From IMG/VR virus record IMGVR_UViG_3300020470_000380, positions 1 through 20,163 of that record: 20,163 bases of DNA; one strand, 5' to 3'. Positions 4,682 to 13,883 of the stretch are shown piece after piece (position 1 is the stretch's first letter; every line of letters begins with the position of its first letter). The stretch comes from a virus. Made by a program: the position numbers and the translations under genes. A model generated the notes under the pieces. That model had not been told where the DNA came from. It was given only the letters and a program-made list of their open reading frames with translations, and searched no databases.

Positions 4682-4690
4682 TTTTCCATA

Positions 4691-5281
4691 TTATCCTACA
4701 ACTCCTTCAGGAATTGCTTGCCAGTATTGAACTTGAAGTTCTACAGTGAATTCTTCAACAGCGTCGTTGCTACCGAAATCAAGATCAATAGCGGAAACGT
4801 TGCTTGGGAATACATCAGTGAACTTATAGGATCTAAGGATATTTGCCTTTTCTCCCTTACTTGCGTCACGAGAAAGTTGATGTACGAACATGTCACAGAA
4901 GTAACCTGTTGCATCTTGCTCATCACCAAGACCAGTAGTCTGAGTAATGTTCTCGTTTGCGGCTTGGATTTTCTCAACCCAAGTTTCAAAGGCATTTCTG
5001 AGCGCGAACTTACTATCGTTCATGATAGTTACAGTCCATGGTTCAAAGGTTCTGTCTCCAGCAATCTTAAGAACACGTCCTCTGAAGGGAACCTCAATGA
5101 TTCCCATCTGAGCGGAAGGCAAGTTCGCTGCGCGAACAGTGAACTTACCGAGATCCGAAAGACCTGTAGCGTTAGAAATAACCTGAGTTGGAAAAGCGAG
5201 GTCTACTTGGAATAGATTAGGTCTCGCAAAATCCGAAACGACGCTTGACTTAAATGCGTCAATAGTGCCTCTTACTGCCAT
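4691..5281 (-). CDS. 19: Tail tube protein gp19
   Basis: Subunit of the inner tail tube through which DNA passes, assembled in rings inside the gp18 sheath. The product is 196 residues (T4 gp19 is 163). It begins MAVRGTIDAFKSSVVSDFAR followed by PNLFQVDLAFP. It also has the conserved RVLKIAGDRTFEPWTVTIMN segment (about 69-88) and a YKFTDVFPSNVSAIDLDF stretch, both typical of T4-like tube proteins. The order sheath, tube, portal matches T4. A very strong Shine-Dalgarno AGGAGG (5291-5296) lies nine bases upstream, fitting the high copy number of this protein. Confidence 0.96.
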   Translation of the reverse strand: MAVRGTIDAFKSSVVSDFARPNLFQVDLAFPTQVISNATGLSDLGKFTVRAANLPSAQMGIIEVPFRGRVLKIAGDRTFEPWTVTIMNDSKFALRNAFETWVEKIQAANENITQTTGLGDEQDATGYFCDMFVHQLSRDASKGEKANILRSYKFTDVFPSNVSAIDLDFGSNDAVEEFTVELQVQYWQAIPEGVVG

Positions 5282-5290
5282 TTTTGTTAG

Positions 5291-5296
5291 CCTCCT
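5291..5296 (-). promoter_or_regulatory. Strong ribosome binding site of gp19
   Basis: The minus strand reads AGGAGG, nine bases before the gp19 ATG. It is the best Shine-Dalgarno sequence I see in the window. Confidence 0.75.
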
Positions 5297-5306
5297 TGCT
5301 TAATAT

Positions 5307-5314
5307 TATTTAGA
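5307..5314 (-). promoter_or_regulatory. Probable late promoter of gp19
   Basis: The minus strand reads TCTAAATA followed by ATATT, one mismatch from TATAAATA, immediately after the gp18 stop and 25 bases before the gp19 ATG. Confidence 0.55.
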
Positions 5315-7717
5315 TTAACTGGCAATTTCAGAGAACGAGACACCAGTTCTCGTTGCAGTGAATGTCAATGTAATGTAGTTAATCGTGCGTGTTGGCTTCA
5401 CATAGATTTCAGCGTAGAATTCGCCTCTATCAACAGCATCTGGTGGGTTGTTTTCTTCGTCACACTTGACGAGGAAGTCCGTTACACCACGACGACCTTG
5501 AACATCTCTCAAGTATGGCTCAACCAAGTTACGGAAGAGTGAACGAGATGTCTCATCATTCTGTTCAAAGAGTTGTGCCTTAGCAGACTCTCCGATAACT
5601 CTTTCAAGAGTCAAGAACAAACGACGTACGTTGATACGATCAAAGGCAGATTGATAACCCAGTGCGGTTTTGTCACCGAAGAGGATTACGCCTTGGCCAG
5701 GGAAAGTAACAATAGGGTTAATTCGCTCGGAATATAGTTTGTCTCTTTGATCTTTGTTAGGAGAGTAAGCAAGTTTAATTGCATTTCTCAAAACACCGCG
5801 AGAGAAACCTGCAGGAGAGAACCAAGGATCTTGGTTAATACCAGTTTGCAAGCAAAGACCAGCAACATCACCATTGCAAGGGATGTAGCGATAAACGTCA
5901 GAATACTTATCGTAGATATACTTGTAACCAGAATCAAGAACAGCGTAAGAAGTTGAACCGATTGATTGGAAATAAGTAAGAATCTTGTTAGTGATTGTAT
6001 CAGAGTTAGTCTGACCAATAACGTCGGAACGCATTGGAGAGAAGAACGCGATGCAGTCCTTTCTAGAATTTACGATATTGAGGATTGAGTTTGCTTTTGC
6101 AAGAGCAGCATCCTTAGTAGCACCAGCAGGTCCACCGAGAATGTAGTCTACATTGATTGACTCAGCATCAGATACAAGGTTGTAAGCGTTGCTGAAATCT
6201 GAGGAAGTGTTAGAATAGTCATCAACACCACCAGCGAAAGCAAATTTAATAGAACCACCAGACTTACCACCCACCATGTGACGACCGTTAGGCTCATCAT
6301 GCACAGACTTGGAAGACTGAATTCTATTGAAGTTTCTGTTAGCGGAAATAGCACCCCAAGCACCAGTTGCAAGAACTGCGTTTACAGGGAACTGATCGTC
6401 ATCATCAATATGACCACCTTGGTAGATGTACTGAGATGTCTGCTTCAGAACGTTTGCATAGTAGTTGTTTTCTCCAACAGTAGACTTAGCATCGCTAGCC
6501 TTAGATACAGAGATAAACTTCTCAAGAAGAGTGTTTGGAGTGCCAGTTAACTGACCATCTCCATCAAGAACGATGATATGCATTTCATCATTCTTACCAC
6601 CTTTATCAAGACAATAAAGTGAAGTAGAAGGACGTGGAGCGACATTCACCCACTTCTTACCAGGAAGATACTCACGCTCAGGATACTCGTCGCGGACTGA
6701 ACCAATCACTGCAGCTTCAGCATCAGCATCAGCGATGCTATCTGTTGCAGCGAATGCAGCAGAGTCAGCGTCAAGAACGACGTGAAGTTCTCTTACAACA
6801 CTTGCAATTGGACCTGTTACAGATCCTTGGACGACTGTCATAGTGTCGTCAATTTTACCAGTAATACCACCAGAAGGGATATCAATCTCTAGTACGCGAT
6901 CAGTAGGGTTCCAGGAGAGAACAGTAACTGTCTGATCAGCGCCACCGATTTCAATCGTTGTACCTGCGTCAGCACCAATAAATGCCCAATCCACTCCACC
7001 ATCATTGGCAAGGCCAGATGTGTGAGTAGGTGCAGAAGCACCAGATGTACCAGCACCTTGTGCTTGGTAGATGTTACCACCGTTGGTTACTCTGTCAAAC
7101 TTACTGTAGTAAGCAGCAGTAGACCAAGCGGGTTCGTCTGGGATAAAGTCCCCATTTACAGTTGACTCAAGTGTCAACTTTACTGAATAGCGGAATACTT
7201 TACCGCCTTTGTTACCAGAGACAACTGCACCTGCTCTAACGAATCTATAGTCATCAGTACCTGCGGGAGCGTTCAAAGTTAAAATTTGATCGGCACCAGC
7301 GTCTGTGACAAAGACTCTAAGAGAGTTTCCATAACTACCAGGTGATTGTGTTGCAAATACCCAGTTGTTACTACCACCCTCATACGCGGTTTCGTAGTTC
7401 TGTAGATTTTTAATCTTTACTGCAGCAGAATTACTGACTGCATTTTTTAAGTTCGTGCCATCAGCACGGATAGTTTTGAGAGTACCGCCATAGCTCAAAA
7501 ATTGAGCGGCTGTAAACCAAAATTCGTAATTAGTATCATTCGGTTTGCCAAAGGTAGAGATGAGATTTCTCTCATTGTTGATGTCAACAACCTGTTCTAC
7601 AGGTCCTCTTTCAAAGGGAGCAGCGAGCGCACCAATATTAGCCAGTGCTACTGAACTAACTGTGGTAAAGTCTCTCTCCTGAATAATAACACCTGGCGAT
7701 AACTGTGACGCTGCCAT
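5315..7717 (-). CDS. 18: Contractile tail sheath protein gp18, with an inserted beta-rich region
   Basis: Main subunit of the contractile sheath. The product is 800 residues, about 140 longer than T4 gp18 (659). The N terminus (LSPGVIIQERDFTT) and the C-terminal third (INPIVTFPGQGVILFGDKTA, then FDRINVRRLFLTLERVI and ending FSEIAS) are typical of T4-like sheath. The middle differs. Residues about 194-248 read PAWSTAAYYSKFDRVTNGGN then IYQAQ, SAPTHTSG and DGGVDW, resembling small aromatic carbohydrate-binding-like modules found in many phage proteins. Residues about 249-308 form a second beta-rich stretch. I infer that this region is on the sheath exterior, as the variable domains of T4 gp18 are. 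An AGGAG lies about ten bases before the ATG, with an exact TATAAATA further upstream. Confidence 0.97.
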   Translation of the reverse strand: MAASQLSPGVIIQERDFTTVSSVALANIGALAAPFERGPVEQVVDINNERNLISTFGKPNDTNYEFWFTAAQFLSYGGTLKTIRADGTNLKNAVSNSAAVKIKNLQNYETAYEGGSNNWVFATQSPGSYGNSLRVFVTDAGADQILTLNAPAGTDDYRFVRAGAVVSGNKGGKVFRYSVKLTLESTVNGDFIPDEPAWSTAAYYSKFDRVTNGGNIYQAQGAGTSGASAPTHTSGLANDGGVDWAFIGADAGTTIEIGGADQTVTVLSWNPTDRVLEIDIPSGGITGKIDDTMTVVQGSVTGPIASVVRELHVVLDADSAAFAATDSIADADAEAAVIGSVRDEYPEREYLPGKKWVNVAPRPSTSLYCLDKGGKNDEMHIIVLDGDGQLTGTPNTLLEKFISVSKASDAKSTVGENNYYANVLKQTSQYIYQGGHIDDDDQFPVNAVLATGAWGAISANRNFNRIQSSKSVHDEPNGRHMVGGKSGGSIKFAFAGGVDDYSNTSSDFSNAYNLVSDAESINVDYILGGPAGATKDAALAKANSILNIVNSRKDCIAFFSPMRSDVIGQTNSDTITNKILTYFQSIGSTSYAVLDSGYKYIYDKYSDVYRYIPCNGDVAGLCLQTGINQDPWFSPAGFSRGVLRNAIKLAYSPNKDQRDKLYSERINPIVTFPGQGVILFGDKTALGYQSAFDRINVRRLFLTLERVIGESAKAQLFEQNDETSRSLFRNLVEPYLRDVQGRRGVTDFLVKCDEENNPPDAVDRGEFYAEIYVKPTRTINYITLTFTATRTGVSFSEIAS

Positions 7718-7786: not shown

Positions 7787-9436
7787 TCACCGATACTCCC
7801 ACATATACGCACGATCTCCGTATTCATCGGTATGCCAAACGTCTCCATCCGCATCTTTGAACGTATCTTCCTCTAATCCATCGGATATAAAACCGAACGG
7901 TGCCATATCCTGCTCAATATTTTCGCGCTGATCATCATAAATCCTTTGACGAACATCGGTGTCGTTCATCTCTCTAAAATAATCTTGAAGAGCTAACCAA
8001 GAGAAAATAACTAGGCACATAGCCAAGTCATCATTACATCCCTCTTCTGCTTCAAATGATTGTCCTTTCTGAATAAATGTAGTTAATTCAGATATAATAT
8101 CGTAATCACTAACAATTAACTTATCTTCTTCAATTAGAGCTTTTAAGTTTGAGCATCCTACTTTCTTTACAGCAGTGCTCATCTTTACACCCATCTGAGT
8201 TTTCTTCCCAGAGAAACCTTGACCGACAACCTGACCAGAACGTCCACGCATACTGGCCATTAGTAGATTGTCATATTCAAGATCAAAGTGTATAATATCC
8301 GCAACCTGTCCGCCTACGTCATTGACTTCAACTAGAATAAATGCACCGTTATAATGTCTGGCAACATCTACGATAACATTCGGAAACAGGATGGGTTTGA
8401 TTGTATTGTTCTTATACTTCGCTACCATTTTATATGGTAATGTAGTCGTATCTATCACCACAAATGCGGAGTAGTCATTTGATACTCCCCTCGCTACGTC
8501 ACATGCCATGACGTATTGGTGATTTGGTTTTGATTCCTCAAATACATCTAATCCAGCAGACTGTTTTAGAGGATCCTCATACGCCATCACTTTTAATTTT
8601 GATGGGGCAATAAGAGTATCAACAGATCCTAAGAACTCACATTCAAATTCAACTTTGAATTGTGATTCTGATGTATTTGCAATTGTTTGCGCTTTCCATT
8701 TATCATCTCTACCTGGTATCTCAGACCAATGAACTTCCGTGTTCACATATTCATTCTTTCCGCGTTCTGAATCATGCCACAATTTGTAGAACATGTTCAT
8801 CCCGTGTGGTGTGGAGATGATAATAACCTTGGTAGATTTACCAGATGAAATAGTAGGATATACAGAGGAGAAGAACTCATCTGCAATATGATTAGGAACG
8901 AACGCAAACTCATCTAAGAAGATGACATTGAATGACATACCCCTGACAGCACTACTAGATGTAGATGCTGCCATGATCTTAGAACCATTCTCTAGTTCTA
9001 ACGATCCTCGGTTCCATTGGATGATCCCTTGTTGGAGCCATTTCGGTAAGTGTTCGTACGACTTCTGGAGCCTTTGTAGCATTTCCCGCGACGTTGCCGC
9101 TTTGTTGGCAAGAATTGCGACATTAACCTCCTGATTAAAAAGCGTGTACCATAAAAGGTAACTCGTAACAATAGTGGACTTGCCAGATTGACGTGGTAGT
9201 TTCGCAATGTTAAACCTATTGTCGTGGAATTTATGTACCATTTCCGTTTGGAAATCATACATGTCAAATGGTACTAAACCTTTATCAAGTGAAACGATCT
9301 TCACATATGTTTTAATGAAGTACACGGGATCTTCCGAGCACTTCAAAAACTCAGCAATCTGAGCCTCAGTCCACTCATTAGGAACGTTTGCTTTCTTTAG
9401 ATTGGGATTGCCTAGATATACTTCGTTATTCGCCAT
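7787..9436 (-). CDS. 17: Terminase large subunit gp17
   Basis: DNA-packaging motor ATPase and headful nuclease that docks on the portal. The product is 549 residues (T4 gp17 is 610). In order: Walker A in LPRQSGKST (about 80-88); Walker B with the catalytic acid in VIFLDEFAF (Asp175, Glu176); coupling motif STPHG (about 208-212); then the RNase H-fold nuclease, with likely metal ligands Asp313 in ACDVARGVSNDYS, Glu370 in FILVEVNDVGG and Asp469 or Asp470 in GCNDDLAM. The ATG overlaps the end of the upstream oxygenase gene by 11 bases and has no clear Shine-Dalgarno sequence, so translational coupling is likely. Unlike in T4, gp16 is not adjacent: it is about 3.9 kb upstream. Confidence 0.98.
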   Translation of the reverse strand: MANNEVYLGNPNLKKANVPNEWTEAQIAEFLKCSEDPVYFIKTYVKIVSLDKGLVPFDMYDFQTEMVHKFHDNRFNIAKLPRQSGKSTIVTSYLLWYTLFNQEVNVAILANKAATSREMLQRLQKSYEHLPKWLQQGIIQWNRGSLELENGSKIMAASTSSSAVRGMSFNVIFLDEFAFVPNHIADEFFSSVYPTISSGKSTKVIIISTPHGMNMFYKLWHDSERGKNEYVNTEVHWSEIPGRDDKWKAQTIANTSESQFKVEFECEFLGSVDTLIAPSKLKVMAYEDPLKQSAGLDVFEESKPNHQYVMACDVARGVSNDYSAFVVIDTTTLPYKMVAKYKNNTIKPILFPNVIVDVARHYNGAFILVEVNDVGGQVADIIHFDLEYDNLLMASMRGRSGQVVGQGFSGKKTQMGVKMSTAVKKVGCSNLKALIEEDKLIVSDYDIISELTTFIQKGQSFEAEEGCNDDLAMCLVIFSWLALQDYFREMNDTDVRQRIYDDQRENIEQDMAPFGFISDGLEEDTFKDADGDVWHTDEYGDRAYMWEYR

Positions 9437-10034
9437 AACTCATAGGGAAAGGTCTAGTATTTGGTTTGCACATTTCAGCGTGTTGAAGCATTTCTTCTTC
9501 TTGACCAGGTGTGTATTGGAATACAGCACTGAATCGTGCAACTCCCTCATGATTTCTATTTGGCGCTTTTGCACCATGAGGGATTGATCCTGGAAAGATT
9601 ACTAATCTACCAGGTTTAGGGATGATGGCATCTGTGATTTCTCCGTCACGAACAAACACACTTTCAGAACCCCATGCTTCACTCCATTTAGTATTGGGAT
9701 AAACCATAAAGCTTAGAGCATCTTCCTGCTCACCATCAATATGTAAGTTCGGACTGTCTCCAAATCGGAAACAATTATATACTACTCTATGAAAATTTGG
9801 AACGGGGACACCAGATCGTTCCTTAAAAACTCTCATACAAAACTGTTCAAACTCACCGAAGTTTGGTAGGTCAATAACTTGACCCAATGAATACTGGGTA
9901 AGACTTTGTTCAGGATCGTCAAAGATTAACTGCCACCCATCAAATAAGGTAAAGTAATCTTCCATCCATTGAATTTCATCTTTAGTAAATATGTCATCAA
10001 TGACAATTACTTGTTCACGTTTAATTAGCTTCAT
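9426..10034 (-). CDS. 2-oxoglutarate/Fe(II)-dependent oxygenase (prolyl 4-hydroxylase-like)
   Basis: Probable non-haem iron dioxygenase, which would couple decarboxylation of 2-oxoglutarate to substrate oxidation; the substrate is unknown. The product is 202 residues. The double-stranded beta-helix signature is clear: HxD iron ligands in NLHIDGEQ (His98, Asp100), the distal histidine in FPGSIPHGAKA (His153), and the 2-oxoglutarate-binding arginine in EGVARFSAVFQY (Arg167). Such genes are common in cyanophages. Roles proposed for them, such as protein or nucleic-acid modification or adjusting host 2-oxoglutarate (nitrogen) signalling, are not shown by the sequence. The gene overlaps its upstream neighbour by 14 bases and gp17 by 11, so it is embedded in the packaging transcript. 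Confidence 0.88.
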   Translation of the reverse strand: MKLIKREQVIVIDDIFTKDEIQWMEDYFTLFDGWQLIFDDPEQSLTQYSLGQVIDLPNFGEFEQFCMRVFKERSGVPVPNFHRVVYNCFRFGDSPNLHIDGEQEDALSFMVYPNTKWSEAWGSESVFVRDGEITDAIIPKPGRLVIFPGSIPHGAKAPNRNHEGVARFSAVFQYTPGQEEEMLQHAEMCKPNTRPFPMSYGE

Positions 10035-10254
10035 AAAATGTGTATTCAGTTAACATAGCAAAGAGTTTGTGTTTCAAGAGTTTCAAATATTCTTGTTCTT
10101 CGGGGGGTCTAGCGGGTGAACCTGGCCAAACTTCTAGAGAATAACATACATGATTATAGAGTAGTCGGATTTCTCCAACACCCATATTCATGGTCATGTA
10201 CCATTCTCCCTCGTAAGGGAAAAAGTCTTCTCCAAAGTCAAACTCGTCATTCAT
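10021..10254 (-). CDS. Small acidic hypothetical protein (77 residues)
   Basis: I do not recognise a named family. The protein starts MNDEFDFGEDFFPYEGEWYM, is rich in aromatic and acidic residues in its first half, and then has LEVWPGSPARPPEEQEYLKL with a helical C terminus. There is no membrane segment or signal peptide. It overlaps the upstream nuclease gene by eight bases (ATGAATGA) and the downstream oxygenase by 14, with no clear Shine-Dalgarno sequence, so it is probably translated by coupling. The tight packing and sensible composition support a real gene; the function is unknown. Confidence 0.75.
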   Translation of the reverse strand: MNDEFDFGEDFFPYEGEWYMTMNMGVGEIRLLYNHVCYSLEVWPGSPARPPEEQEYLKLLKHKLFAMLTEYTFYEAN

Positions 10255-10711
10255 CGGTTAGCGTACCATAGGTACGACGGATTTCTCGTAGTTCTTCAAA
10301 GTTTTTCTGTTTCGTACCTCCATCATATGCCCATGCATATCCTTCAGTAATCATCATTTCATTGAGGGACAACTCGGAGTCTCCGATGTAACACCATCCC
10401 AATAACCTCCCGTACTTCCCGACACCGCCATCCAACTCAGTACGGATAACGAGATCGTCATCACCATCAATAGCTCCTTCAAGTTTATCTTTGAGCCAAT
10501 TTGTCGCATCAATTCCAAGTGCTTTTTCCTCTAAATCACGAGTTCTCTTTTCAGGAGTATCAACTCCAGCGATACGAACTCTTTCTTTTTTGTATAGGTC
10601 AAATCCTAGATCAATAGTAACATCAATAGTGTCACCATCAACTACTCTGTTGATCTCTATTACTCGGAAGTTGTAACAACTCTTCCGACTTGGGGGTGTC
10701 ATTGCTCCCAT
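10247..10711 (-). CDS. Thermonuclease-like (SNase family) nuclease
   Basis: Likely calcium-dependent phosphodiesterase of the staphylococcal nuclease fold. The product is 154 residues. Signature motifs are RVVDGDTIDVTID (residues 22-34), RVRIAGVDTPE (44-54), KYGRLLGW (99-106) and LNEMMITEGYAWAY (116-129). By alignment to the nuclease active site, Arg46, Asp51, Glu54 and Arg102 correspond to Arg35, Asp40, Glu43 and Arg87, so all catalytic residues are present. The ATG at 10711 has AAGGA eight bases upstream; an in-frame ATG three codons later has its Shine-Dalgarno-like sequence too close. No signal peptide is visible, so action inside the host cell or packaged in the virion is possible. The start overlaps a small membrane-protein frame by 74 bases. 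Confidence 0.9.
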   Translation of the reverse strand: MGAMTPPSRKSCYNFRVIEINRVVDGDTIDVTIDLGFDLYKKERVRIAGVDTPEKRTRDLEEKALGIDATNWLKDKLEGAIDGDDDLVIRTELDGGVGKYGRLLGWCYIGDSELSLNEMMITEGYAWAYDGGTKQKNFEELREIRRTYGTLTDE

Positions 10712-10811
10712 CGTTTAATTCCTTGAAGGCCATCTTCATTATATAGACGATATACCAAGTTACCATTATGAGAAGGATGACTATCATCCATATAACACCC
10801 CATACTACCAT
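10638..10811 (-). CDS. Small single-helix membrane protein (57 residues; start uncertain)
   Basis: The protein reads MVVWGVIWMIVILLIMVTWY and continues hydrophobic to about residue 25. A polar tail with FKELNDGSNDTPKSEE follows. It is predicted to span the membrane once. The frame extends to an ATG at 10865, which would give 75 residues, but that would run largely through hli in another frame; the ATG at 10811 overlaps hli by only seven bases and is preferred. A further ATG at 10784 is also possible. No clear Shine-Dalgarno sequence precedes 10811. The last 74 bases overlap the nuclease gene. The hydrophobic helix plus soluble tail looks like a real protein, but the long overlap lowers my confidence. 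No family is recognised. Confidence 0.55.
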   Translation of the reverse strand: MVVWGVIWMIVILLIMVTWYIVYIMKMAFKELNDGSNDTPKSEELLQLPSNRDQQSS

Positions 10812-10906
10812 AGCGATTTGACTACCAGAATCACAACACCAACCATTGCCAAACGACCATTCCATCGTTCAGCAAATCTCCAGTAACTGTGATCCCAATC
10901 AATCAT
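10805..10906 (-). CDS. hli: High-light-inducible protein (Hli), 33 residues
   Basis: Very short gene beginning MIDWDHSYWRFAERWNGRLA and continuing MVGVVILVV to KSLW and a TAG stop. It contains the Hli/chlorophyll a/b-binding signature A-E-R-x-N-G-R-x-A-M-x-G (residues 12-23), with the chlorophyll-ligating Glu13 and Asn16 and the ion-pairing Arg18. A single transmembrane helix spans about residues 16-32. Cyanobacterial and cyanophage Hlips bind pigments in thylakoids, protecting photosystem II and nascent chlorophyll under stress; phage copies are thought to sustain host photosynthesis during infection. The ATG overlaps the TGA of the upstream gene as ATGA, and the stop overlaps the preferred start of the next gene. 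The C terminus after AMVG is short and lacks the usual Gly-rich end. Confidence 0.85.
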   Translation of the reverse strand: MIDWDHSYWRFAERWNGRLAMVGVVILVVKSLW

Positions 10907-11211
10907 TTCGGTAGTTTATCTAATACTTGTTGTACTATTTGATCTAGTAAGTTCACGTCAAGAGACATGAATGGTGGAATAATTCCTAACATTCTTAGTA
11001 ATCCATCCACAAATAATGCGAGAGTTGTAAACCCTAGGATCATACTGATCACAGTAGCATCTCTATTATGCTTCGCCATGGAAGCATCATCAATTTTCTT
11101 TGCTTCTGCCAAAGCATATTGAACTGCATTATCTATCAACTCATCCACTTCCTTAGCAGTGTAATAAGTCTTCAATGAAAACAGATCATTTTTGTTTTGG
11201 GATAGGGTCAT
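10903..11211 (-). CDS. Putative one-helix membrane protein (102 residues)
   Basis: I do not recognise a named function. Residues 1-50 form a mostly helical soluble segment (LKTYYTAKEVDELIDNAVQY, then AKKIDDASMAKHNRD). Residues about 52-80 are hydrophobic (VISMILGFTTLALFVDGLLR and LGIIPPF), forming one likely transmembrane helix. A short amphipathic helix (LLDQIVQQVLDKL) ends the protein. The layout resembles small phage membrane proteins, and a holin-like role cannot be excluded, but nothing proves it. The ATG overlaps the upstream stop as ATGA, and AGGAGA lies just before it within the upstream gene. Its own stop overlaps the hli start in the same way, so all three are probably co-translated. 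Confidence 0.78.
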   Translation of the reverse strand: MTLSQNKNDLFSLKTYYTAKEVDELIDNAVQYALAEAKKIDDASMAKHNRDATVISMILGFTTLALFVDGLLRMLGIIPPFMSLDVNLLDQIVQQVLDKLPK

Positions 11212-13305: not shown

Positions 13306-13743
13306 TTAATTCGTGTCAGTATTATTTATCTCTTTTTGTTGCTTAAGTAATTTCTGTAGTTCTGAACTTGTGCCAACAAACAATGCATTTGTAACATTGT
13401 TAGGACCTTTTTTCTCTTCAGCATCAAGATCTTTCATCTTCTTCTGTAGATCAATTAACTTATCTGCAACGTCTGCAACGTGTTTAATTAACTGACCTGC
13501 AACTTCATATGCACGAGGATGATCTGATGCCCGTGCCACATCTAATATACCGTCTACTGCCTCCTGACCCTTCATTACAAGACTGTTTAATTGAGCACGA
13601 GAATACTCATAATCTTGCTTGACATCTTGTGTCTCTGATTTTTTTACATCAGGTTTTTTGATTTCATCTTTAGTTTCAATCGCTTTCTGAAGTTCAGAAG
13701 GTTCAGTACCAAAGACTTCATTCAATCCATCAAATGCGCTCAT
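13306..13743 (-). CDS. 16: Terminase small subunit gp16
   Basis: Regulatory subunit of the packaging terminase, which recognises phage DNA and stimulates gp17. The product is 145 residues (T4 gp16 is 164). It starts MSAFDGLNEVFG, has a Lys/Glu-rich linker, then a helical core (YEYSRAQLNSLVMKGQEAVD followed by ILDVARASDHPRAYEVAGQL) that is diagnostic of T4-like gp16. A coiled-coil stretch (VADVADKLIDLQKKMKDLDA) and a C-terminal FVGTSSELQKLLKQ complete it. AGGAAG lies eight bases before the ATG, which overlaps the stop of the preceding 47-codon gene. Its 3' end contains a late-promoter-like sequence serving the next gene. Confidence 0.93.
   Translation of the reverse strand: MSAFDGLNEVFGTEPSELQKAIETKDEIKKPDVKKSETQDVKQDYEYSRAQLNSLVMKGQEAVDGILDVARASDHPRAYEVAGQLIKHVADVADKLIDLQKKMKDLDAEEKKGPNNVTNALFVGTSSELQKLLKQQKEINNTDTN
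13323..13330 (-). promoter_or_regulatory. Probable late promoter inside the end of gp16
   Basis: The minus strand reads GATAAATA followed by ATACT, one mismatch from TATAAATA, within the last codons of gp16 and 28 bases before the ATG at 13294. It would start transcription of the accessory block. Confidence 0.5.
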
Positions 13744-13883
13744 GATTTACGCTTCCTTTTATTTTCTTTAAGAAGATACTCTAACTGAACTCCCTTAAAT
13801 TCTAAGGCAATTCTTTTAGTTTCAGTCATCTCTTCACTATAAAAGATTACTCTAGTATCCATTATGTTTGTGTCGCCACTCAT
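13740..13883 (-). CDS. Small basic hypothetical protein between gp15 and gp16 (47 residues)
   Basis: A 48-codon frame beginning MSGDTNIMDTRVIFYSEEMT and ending LLKENKRKRKS. It fills exactly the only gap between gp15 and gp16. The ATG overlaps the gp15 stop as ATGA, the TGA overlaps the gp16 start as ATGA, and AGGAG lies seven bases before the ATG. The C terminus is strongly basic (KENKRKRK), and the middle (TKRIALEFKGVQLEYLL) could form a strand-helix unit. I do not recognise a family. The two four-base overlaps and the Shine-Dalgarno sequence make it very likely to be translated. A role in packaging or tail completion is suggested only by its neighbours. Confidence 0.8.
   Translation of the reverse strand: MSGDTNIMDTRVIFYSEEMTETKRIALEFKGVQLEYLLKENKRKRKS

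Follow-up and report, generated by a model that had tools for sequence, protein, structure and literature searches.

High-light-inducible proteins (Hlips) bind their pigments, four chlorophylls and two carotenoids, and release energy as heat only once they have dimerised (PMC12142464). In the solved ChlG2-HliD2 complex an HliD dimer lies at the centre (PMC13297055), and in Synechocystis under stress the HliD homodimers are replaced by HliC/HliD heterodimers (PMC12142464). Ordinary phage Hlips (hli03, T4-GC 267) share the CAB motif and the single helix with the family discussed here, hli06, and occur in the same genomes; unlike hli06, they are longer, carry TGxxIPGxF-like tails and are clustered upstream of psbA. 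The hli06 family is already known from one phage, P-SSM2 (YP_214510.1, T4-GC 274, 34 aa). Sullivan et al. 2010 (PMC3037559) list T4-GC 274 among the Hli clusters, with a length of 105 bp in P-SSM2, and our literature search returned no paper naming hli06.

The interval from g16 to g17 (g15-g18) has been documented as a hot spot where host-derived genes collect (PMC3037559, PMC2984593). In this variable, hyperplastic region (Millard 2009; Sullivan 2010), genes such as zwf/gnd and those for plastocyanin and bilin reductases stand next to a nuclease of the SNase type; the text of these papers, as far as consulted, does not mention an hli06 gene in g16-g17. The T4-GC 228 nuclease family has been proposed to promote gene shuffling in this interval (PMC3037559).

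A short hli gene in the window
The window, by which we mean the whole stretch of DNA that was analysed, is a virus record of 20,163 bases; over 6.2 kb it shares 99% identity with S-SSM4, a Synechococcus phage of the genus Greenvirus. A sequence-only reading of it had claimed a 33-residue hli gene at 10805-10906, bearing the Hli signature and joined by an ATGA to its upstream neighbour, and all three elements are found, on the minus strand:

10805-10906, minus: hli06-family gene, ATG at 10906, TAG at 10805, 33 aa
10838-10870, minus: CAB (chlorophyll a/b-binding) motif, codons 13-23, ERWNGRLAMVG, with the invariant residues (PF00504)
10880-10900, minus: DxxHxYW, the hli06-specific N-terminal signature, codons 3-9, with D3, H6, Y8 and W9 invariant in 28 aligned relatives
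10903-10906, minus: ATGA, where the hli06 start overlaps the stop of the upstream gene (read from the sequence)
10805-10811, minus: ATGGTAG, where the hli06 stop overlaps the likely start of the downstream gene (read from the sequence)
10903-11211, minus: upstream gene for a 102-aa membrane protein, a T4-GC 246 homologue (PHROG 7360)
10638-10811, minus: downstream gene for a 57-aa membrane protein (PHROG 814), its start most likely at 10811, not 10865

The translation, MIDWDHSYWRFAERWNGRLAMVGVVILVVKSLW (33 residues), contains the complete Hlip signature ExxNGRxAMxG (E13, N16, G17, R18, A20, M21, G23). Across all six reading frames of the window the pattern E..NGR.AM turns up a single time, and none of 500 mononucleotide shuffles produces it. 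The profile search proposed in the sequence-only reading matched PHROG 178, ‘high light inducible protein’ (E=7.7e-8), while PF00504 (E=4.3e-4, 21.3 bits) fell one bit below its curated cutoff of 22.3 bits; PF00504 is matched by all 28 aligned hli06 relatives, and a search of NCBIfam with the window protein returned no match. With tblastn, the annotated hli06 of P-SSM2 is recovered at 5e-10. The observation is confirmed: the ORF is a real, conserved gene for an Hlip. It is a previously unannotated hli06 member in an unusual place. That gene finders would easily miss it, as had been suggested, agrees with the named phages S-SSM4 and S-SSM6b, which encode the identical 33 residues without a gene being annotated in the gap of either record. 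The hli gene had further been called the strongest evidence for a cyanophage, a distinction that belongs rather to the 99% identity with S-SSM4 over the surrounding 6.2 kb.

Relatives and tail of hli06
The closest named relative is hli06 of P-SSM2, at 77% identity over 31 residues. Both proteins are of much the same length (34 aa in P-SSM2, 33 aa in the window) and have the DxxHxYW N terminus and the YWR.AERWNGRLAMVGV core, and both genes overlap an upstream gene through ATGA. They differ in the tail (KTCIN for P-SSM2, KSLW for the window) as well as in the upstream partner, which is PSSM2_278 in the hli/psbA region of P-SSM2 and the T4-GC 246 protein in g16-g17 of the window.

Further relatives were fetched from IMG/VR with a degenerate DNA pattern, and the family size given here is a lower bound. 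The matches split in two: ordinary Hlips with TGxxIPGxF-like tails, versus at least 84 records of the hli06 type. Among the matches listed, 82 of the 83 hli06-type members with a readable start measure 33-40 aa, and the TGxxIPGxF tail is missing from all of them. The family consensus, which the window protein fits, reads DxxHxYW[RK][FYW]AERWNGRLAM[VI]G and is followed by a variable tail (KSLW, KTCIN, KCLS, ILLTVR and others). Invariant in the 28 aligned members are D3, H6, Y8, W9, A12, E13, R14, W15, N16, G17, R18, A20, M21 and G23, and the first four of these are absent from the DNA pattern by which the loci were fetched. Since members are near-uniformly 33-40 aa long with variable tails, a short C terminus characterises the family as such. 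The earlier remark that it is shorter than in phage Hlips is thus true of hli06 as a whole and not of this copy alone, and the term ‘minimal pigment-binding peptide’ is well supported as a description of anatomy.

Genomic location and origin
Outside the S-SSM4 lineage, a search among the matches listed placed a P278-like gene, encoding a membrane protein of ~65 aa with an acidic stretch, directly upstream of hli06 in 73 of 77 loci. A diverged P278-like gene was recognised by reading in a 74th locus (L133), and the remaining three begin at contig ends. This usual site lies in the hli/psbA region of P-SSM2-like phages, and hli06 is cleanly absent from about half of the P278 loci. As a separate observation, P278, hli06 and the following genes form one 157-aa frame in L101 (near 1030, minus strand), probably through indel errors.

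In the window, hli06 follows the T4-GC 246 homologue instead of a P278 gene, and the surrounding interval is bounded as follows:

13306-13743, minus: gp16, small terminase, which bounds the variable interval on the left (synteny with S-SSM4, ACG-2014d annotation)
10247-10711, minus: SNase-type nuclease (PF00565, E=3.5e-11), with homologues labelled T4-GC 228
7787-9436, minus: gp17, large terminase, which bounds it on the right (S-SSM4 annotation)

Throughout the S-SSM4 lineage the gene sits between the T4-GC 246 homologue and the PHROG 814/SNase genes within g16-g17, and the ATGGTAG overlap is kept in all relatives of this type. Where loci were anchored on the 102-aa gene, hli was next in 4 of the 77 with room for it, each with a 102-aa protein of at least 92% identity; where they were anchored on the nuclease, it was next in 1 of 80. 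Among relatives found by their neighbours, hli06 in g16-g17 is therefore confined to the S-SSM4 (Greenvirus)-like lineage. Its place there is thus not general, and in other phages the gene lies in the hli/psbA region. The same interval holds plastocyanin in ACG-2014d and S-WAM1, and plastocyanin plus bilin reductases in P-RSM6. It is possible that the SNase-type nuclease of the window is an agent of gene shuffling here.

The S-SSM4 genome encodes three ordinary Hlips, at 152.5-153.4 kb, and its P278 homologue is directly followed by the next small gene, leaving the usual site empty of hli06. From this we infer that hli06 was probably relocated within the lineage, rather than gained separately and lost. 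The alternative, that the g16-g17 gene was acquired independently of the hli06 of the hli/psbA cluster, is one that we take seriously, although we would not expect it to prove right. A sequence of 33 aa does not allow a decisive tree, the tail VVILVVKSLW is unlike the main tail classes, and among phages without any past g16-g17 copy an empty P278 site is frequent (about half of P278 loci). Conversely, the N-terminal signature and core are the same as in the cluster copies, the usual S-SSM4 site is empty as expected after a move, and our DNA-pattern search of 84,980 genomes yielded no host source. In that search the strict YW-type motif matched none of the 84,980 bacterial and archaeal species genomes, although a divergent host source could escape such a pattern, and a broader pattern matched a single MAG protein, a classical Hlip. 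Because of these two outcomes hli06 looks phage-specific, within the limits of a strict DNA pattern.

Structure and proposed function
The AlphaFold monomer model consists of one helix, over residues about 5-32 (mean pLDDT 82.7), and thus predicts a single transmembrane helix bearing the CAB motif. A family profile of hli06 matches the solved cyanobacterial HliD chains (PDB 9sau and 9sas, 40-41 residues in chain) with E about 5e-5, aligning residues 11-31 to HliD 8-28 over the same CAB helix. HliD itself binds ChlG and Ycf39.

We consider it likely that the window gene encodes a functional one-helix Hlip of the hli06 family of marine T4-like cyanophages, acting as a pigment-binding dimer, present here as the g16-g17 copy of one lineage, and expressed late. 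By analogy with HliD, two hli06 helices would pair as a homodimer, or as a heterodimer with another phage or host Hlip in the manner of HliC/HliD, and would hold chlorophyll and carotenoid in a heat-dissipating form. Such a dimer could scavenge or protect chlorophyll while photosystem II, including phage-made D1, stays working. The tail would be dispensable, with the N-terminal and CAB parts kept and the last ~10 residues free to vary. Counting against this explanation is the lack of the C-terminal segment found in ordinary phage Hlips and in HliD, which extends about 13 residues beyond the aligned helix. The PF00504 score of the window protein, slightly short of the curated threshold, weighs against it as well.

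Rather than forming a pigment-binding homodimer, hli06 might join ordinary Hlips of phage or host, or a photosystem assembly factor, as their partner. S-SSM4 encodes three other Hlips with which it could pair, the replacement of HliD homodimers by HliC/HliD heterodimers in stressed Synechocystis (PMC12142464) offers a precedent, and the invariant DxxHxYW lies outside the CAB motif, where it may be a docking surface. However, the protein has the full CAB motif, on which a homodimer could rely, and we regard this alternative as unlikely.

As for expression of the pigment-binding Hlip, the gene in the S-SSM4/Greenvirus lineage would be translationally coupled (through ATGA, then ATGGTAG) between the two membrane-protein genes. 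No Shine-Dalgarno-like stretch is evident before the hli06 ATG, and its translation would therefore depend on this coupling. The g16-g17 copy would be made together with the late virion genes, late expression being probable because hli06 sits in the structural operon. No late promoter was found directly upstream of hli06 in the window, where TATAAATA occurs on the coding strand only upstream of gp18 and gp22. Since that number is not above chance, late expression is something we infer from position.

Coding evidence
Over the hli06 core, the mean pN/pS is 0.22 for the motif-fetched set, among the matches listed. In order to avoid the bias of a motif search, a second set of loci was fetched by the neighbouring P278 gene alone. 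Of these, 39 have an intact motif-bearing frame at the junction, again with a pN/pS of 0.22, while 36 lack a frame and five have other frames, at least one of which (L310) is an artefact of frame choice; by a looser count, hli06 comes next in 41 of 80 P278 loci. Such ratios indicate purifying selection on the core.

The ORF could instead be a truncated, decaying remnant of a longer Hlip, given its mere 33 aa and the missing TGxxIPGxF tail of ordinary phage Hlips, but this is very improbable: the at least 84 relatives have, among the matches listed, a near-uniform length and the same core beneath diverse tails, the core is intact at all 39 P278-anchored loci and shows purifying selection, and the empty sites inspected hold no half-decayed copies. 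Family-wide length and selection thus largely refute a remnant.

That the true gene is the other frame, from 10865, with the hli frame a coincidence, can be dismissed almost entirely, for although no stop interrupts the 10865 frame in the window, S-SSM4, L091 or L122, an in-frame stop closes it in L043 and L067, which differ from the window by 14 nt that amount in the hli frame to 10 synonymous codons and two conservative changes (R to K, V to I). The sequence-only reading had named conservation of the 10865 frame in place of the hli frame as its own refutation, and the relatives conserve the hli frame and not the other. PHROG 814 matches the long frame (E=1.9e-24) only from residue 17, and no tblastn match in phages begins ahead of the 10811 start; in terms of the 57-aa form, these matches set in no earlier than residue 18. 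It is on these grounds that the downstream gene most likely starts with the ATG at 10811. With this start the downstream gene overlaps hli by 7 nt, which corrects the 10865 start given in the sequence-only reading.

A putative promoter beside the usual site
In many relatives a sigma70-like promoter (TTGACA, 17-18 nt, TATAAT) can be read in the gap that separates P278/hli06 from the small gene that follows, and its -10 is flanked by an inverted repeat GGTA[GA]AAATAC...GTATTTTTACC (for example L029 about 210-300, L046 about 685-770, L345 about 2160-2240 and L005 about 4690-4760). The -35 box falls within the codons for the hli06 tail ILLT[VT]R or, where hli06 is absent, at the stop codon of P278. 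An exact scan returned 54 IMG/VR stretches, and those examined are all at the P278/hli06 site. Its sequence suggests a regulated promoter ahead of the psbA region.

A broader picture, which we put forward tentatively and with less than even confidence, is that hli06 may form a distinct, phage-only class of Hlip, a bare pigment-binding helix with a DxxHxYW head. This class would be gained, lost and moved between the photosynthesis-gene region and the packaging operon, shifting its expression to late, with a tail that in many relatives also supplies the -35 box of the following promoter. With the hli06 family already known, the gain is modest. Still, hli06 illustrates that phages retain only a small part of an Hlip, about 25 conserved residues, and offers a natural minimal construct with which to ask what pigment binding requires of an Hlip. 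In addition, it places a photosynthesis-related gene in the virion/packaging operon of one lineage, which fits the known gene-exchange hot spot at g16-g17, and exposes genes missed in the reference annotations of S-SSM4 and S-SSM6b.

Neighbouring genes and annotation
The S-SSM4 annotation misses the third Hlip of the hli cluster (...EKLNGRLAMLGIIAGLGAYLTTGQIIPGFV), hli06 and the PHROG 814 gene (L141 about 5273-5398 and NC_020875 82940-83141). Homologues of T4-GC 246 occur in 265 phage records at varied sites, for instance after psbD or beside gp32. In several cyanophages they are labelled ‘gp7’, yet they are membrane proteins of ~110-125 aa, and the label looks misleading. Labels also conflict for window positions 9426-10034, which are ‘DNA endonuclease V’ in S-SSM4 and in PHROG 274 versus a 2OG-Fe(II) oxygenase in Pfam (PF13640, E=3.5e-7). 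Finally, a 47-aa frame at 13740-13883, between gp15 and gp16, matches no PHROG and is similar to a frame of 44 aa in L020 (5926-6060), located there between hli06 and the SNase gene, and judging from this resemblance it is possibly another gene common to both regions.
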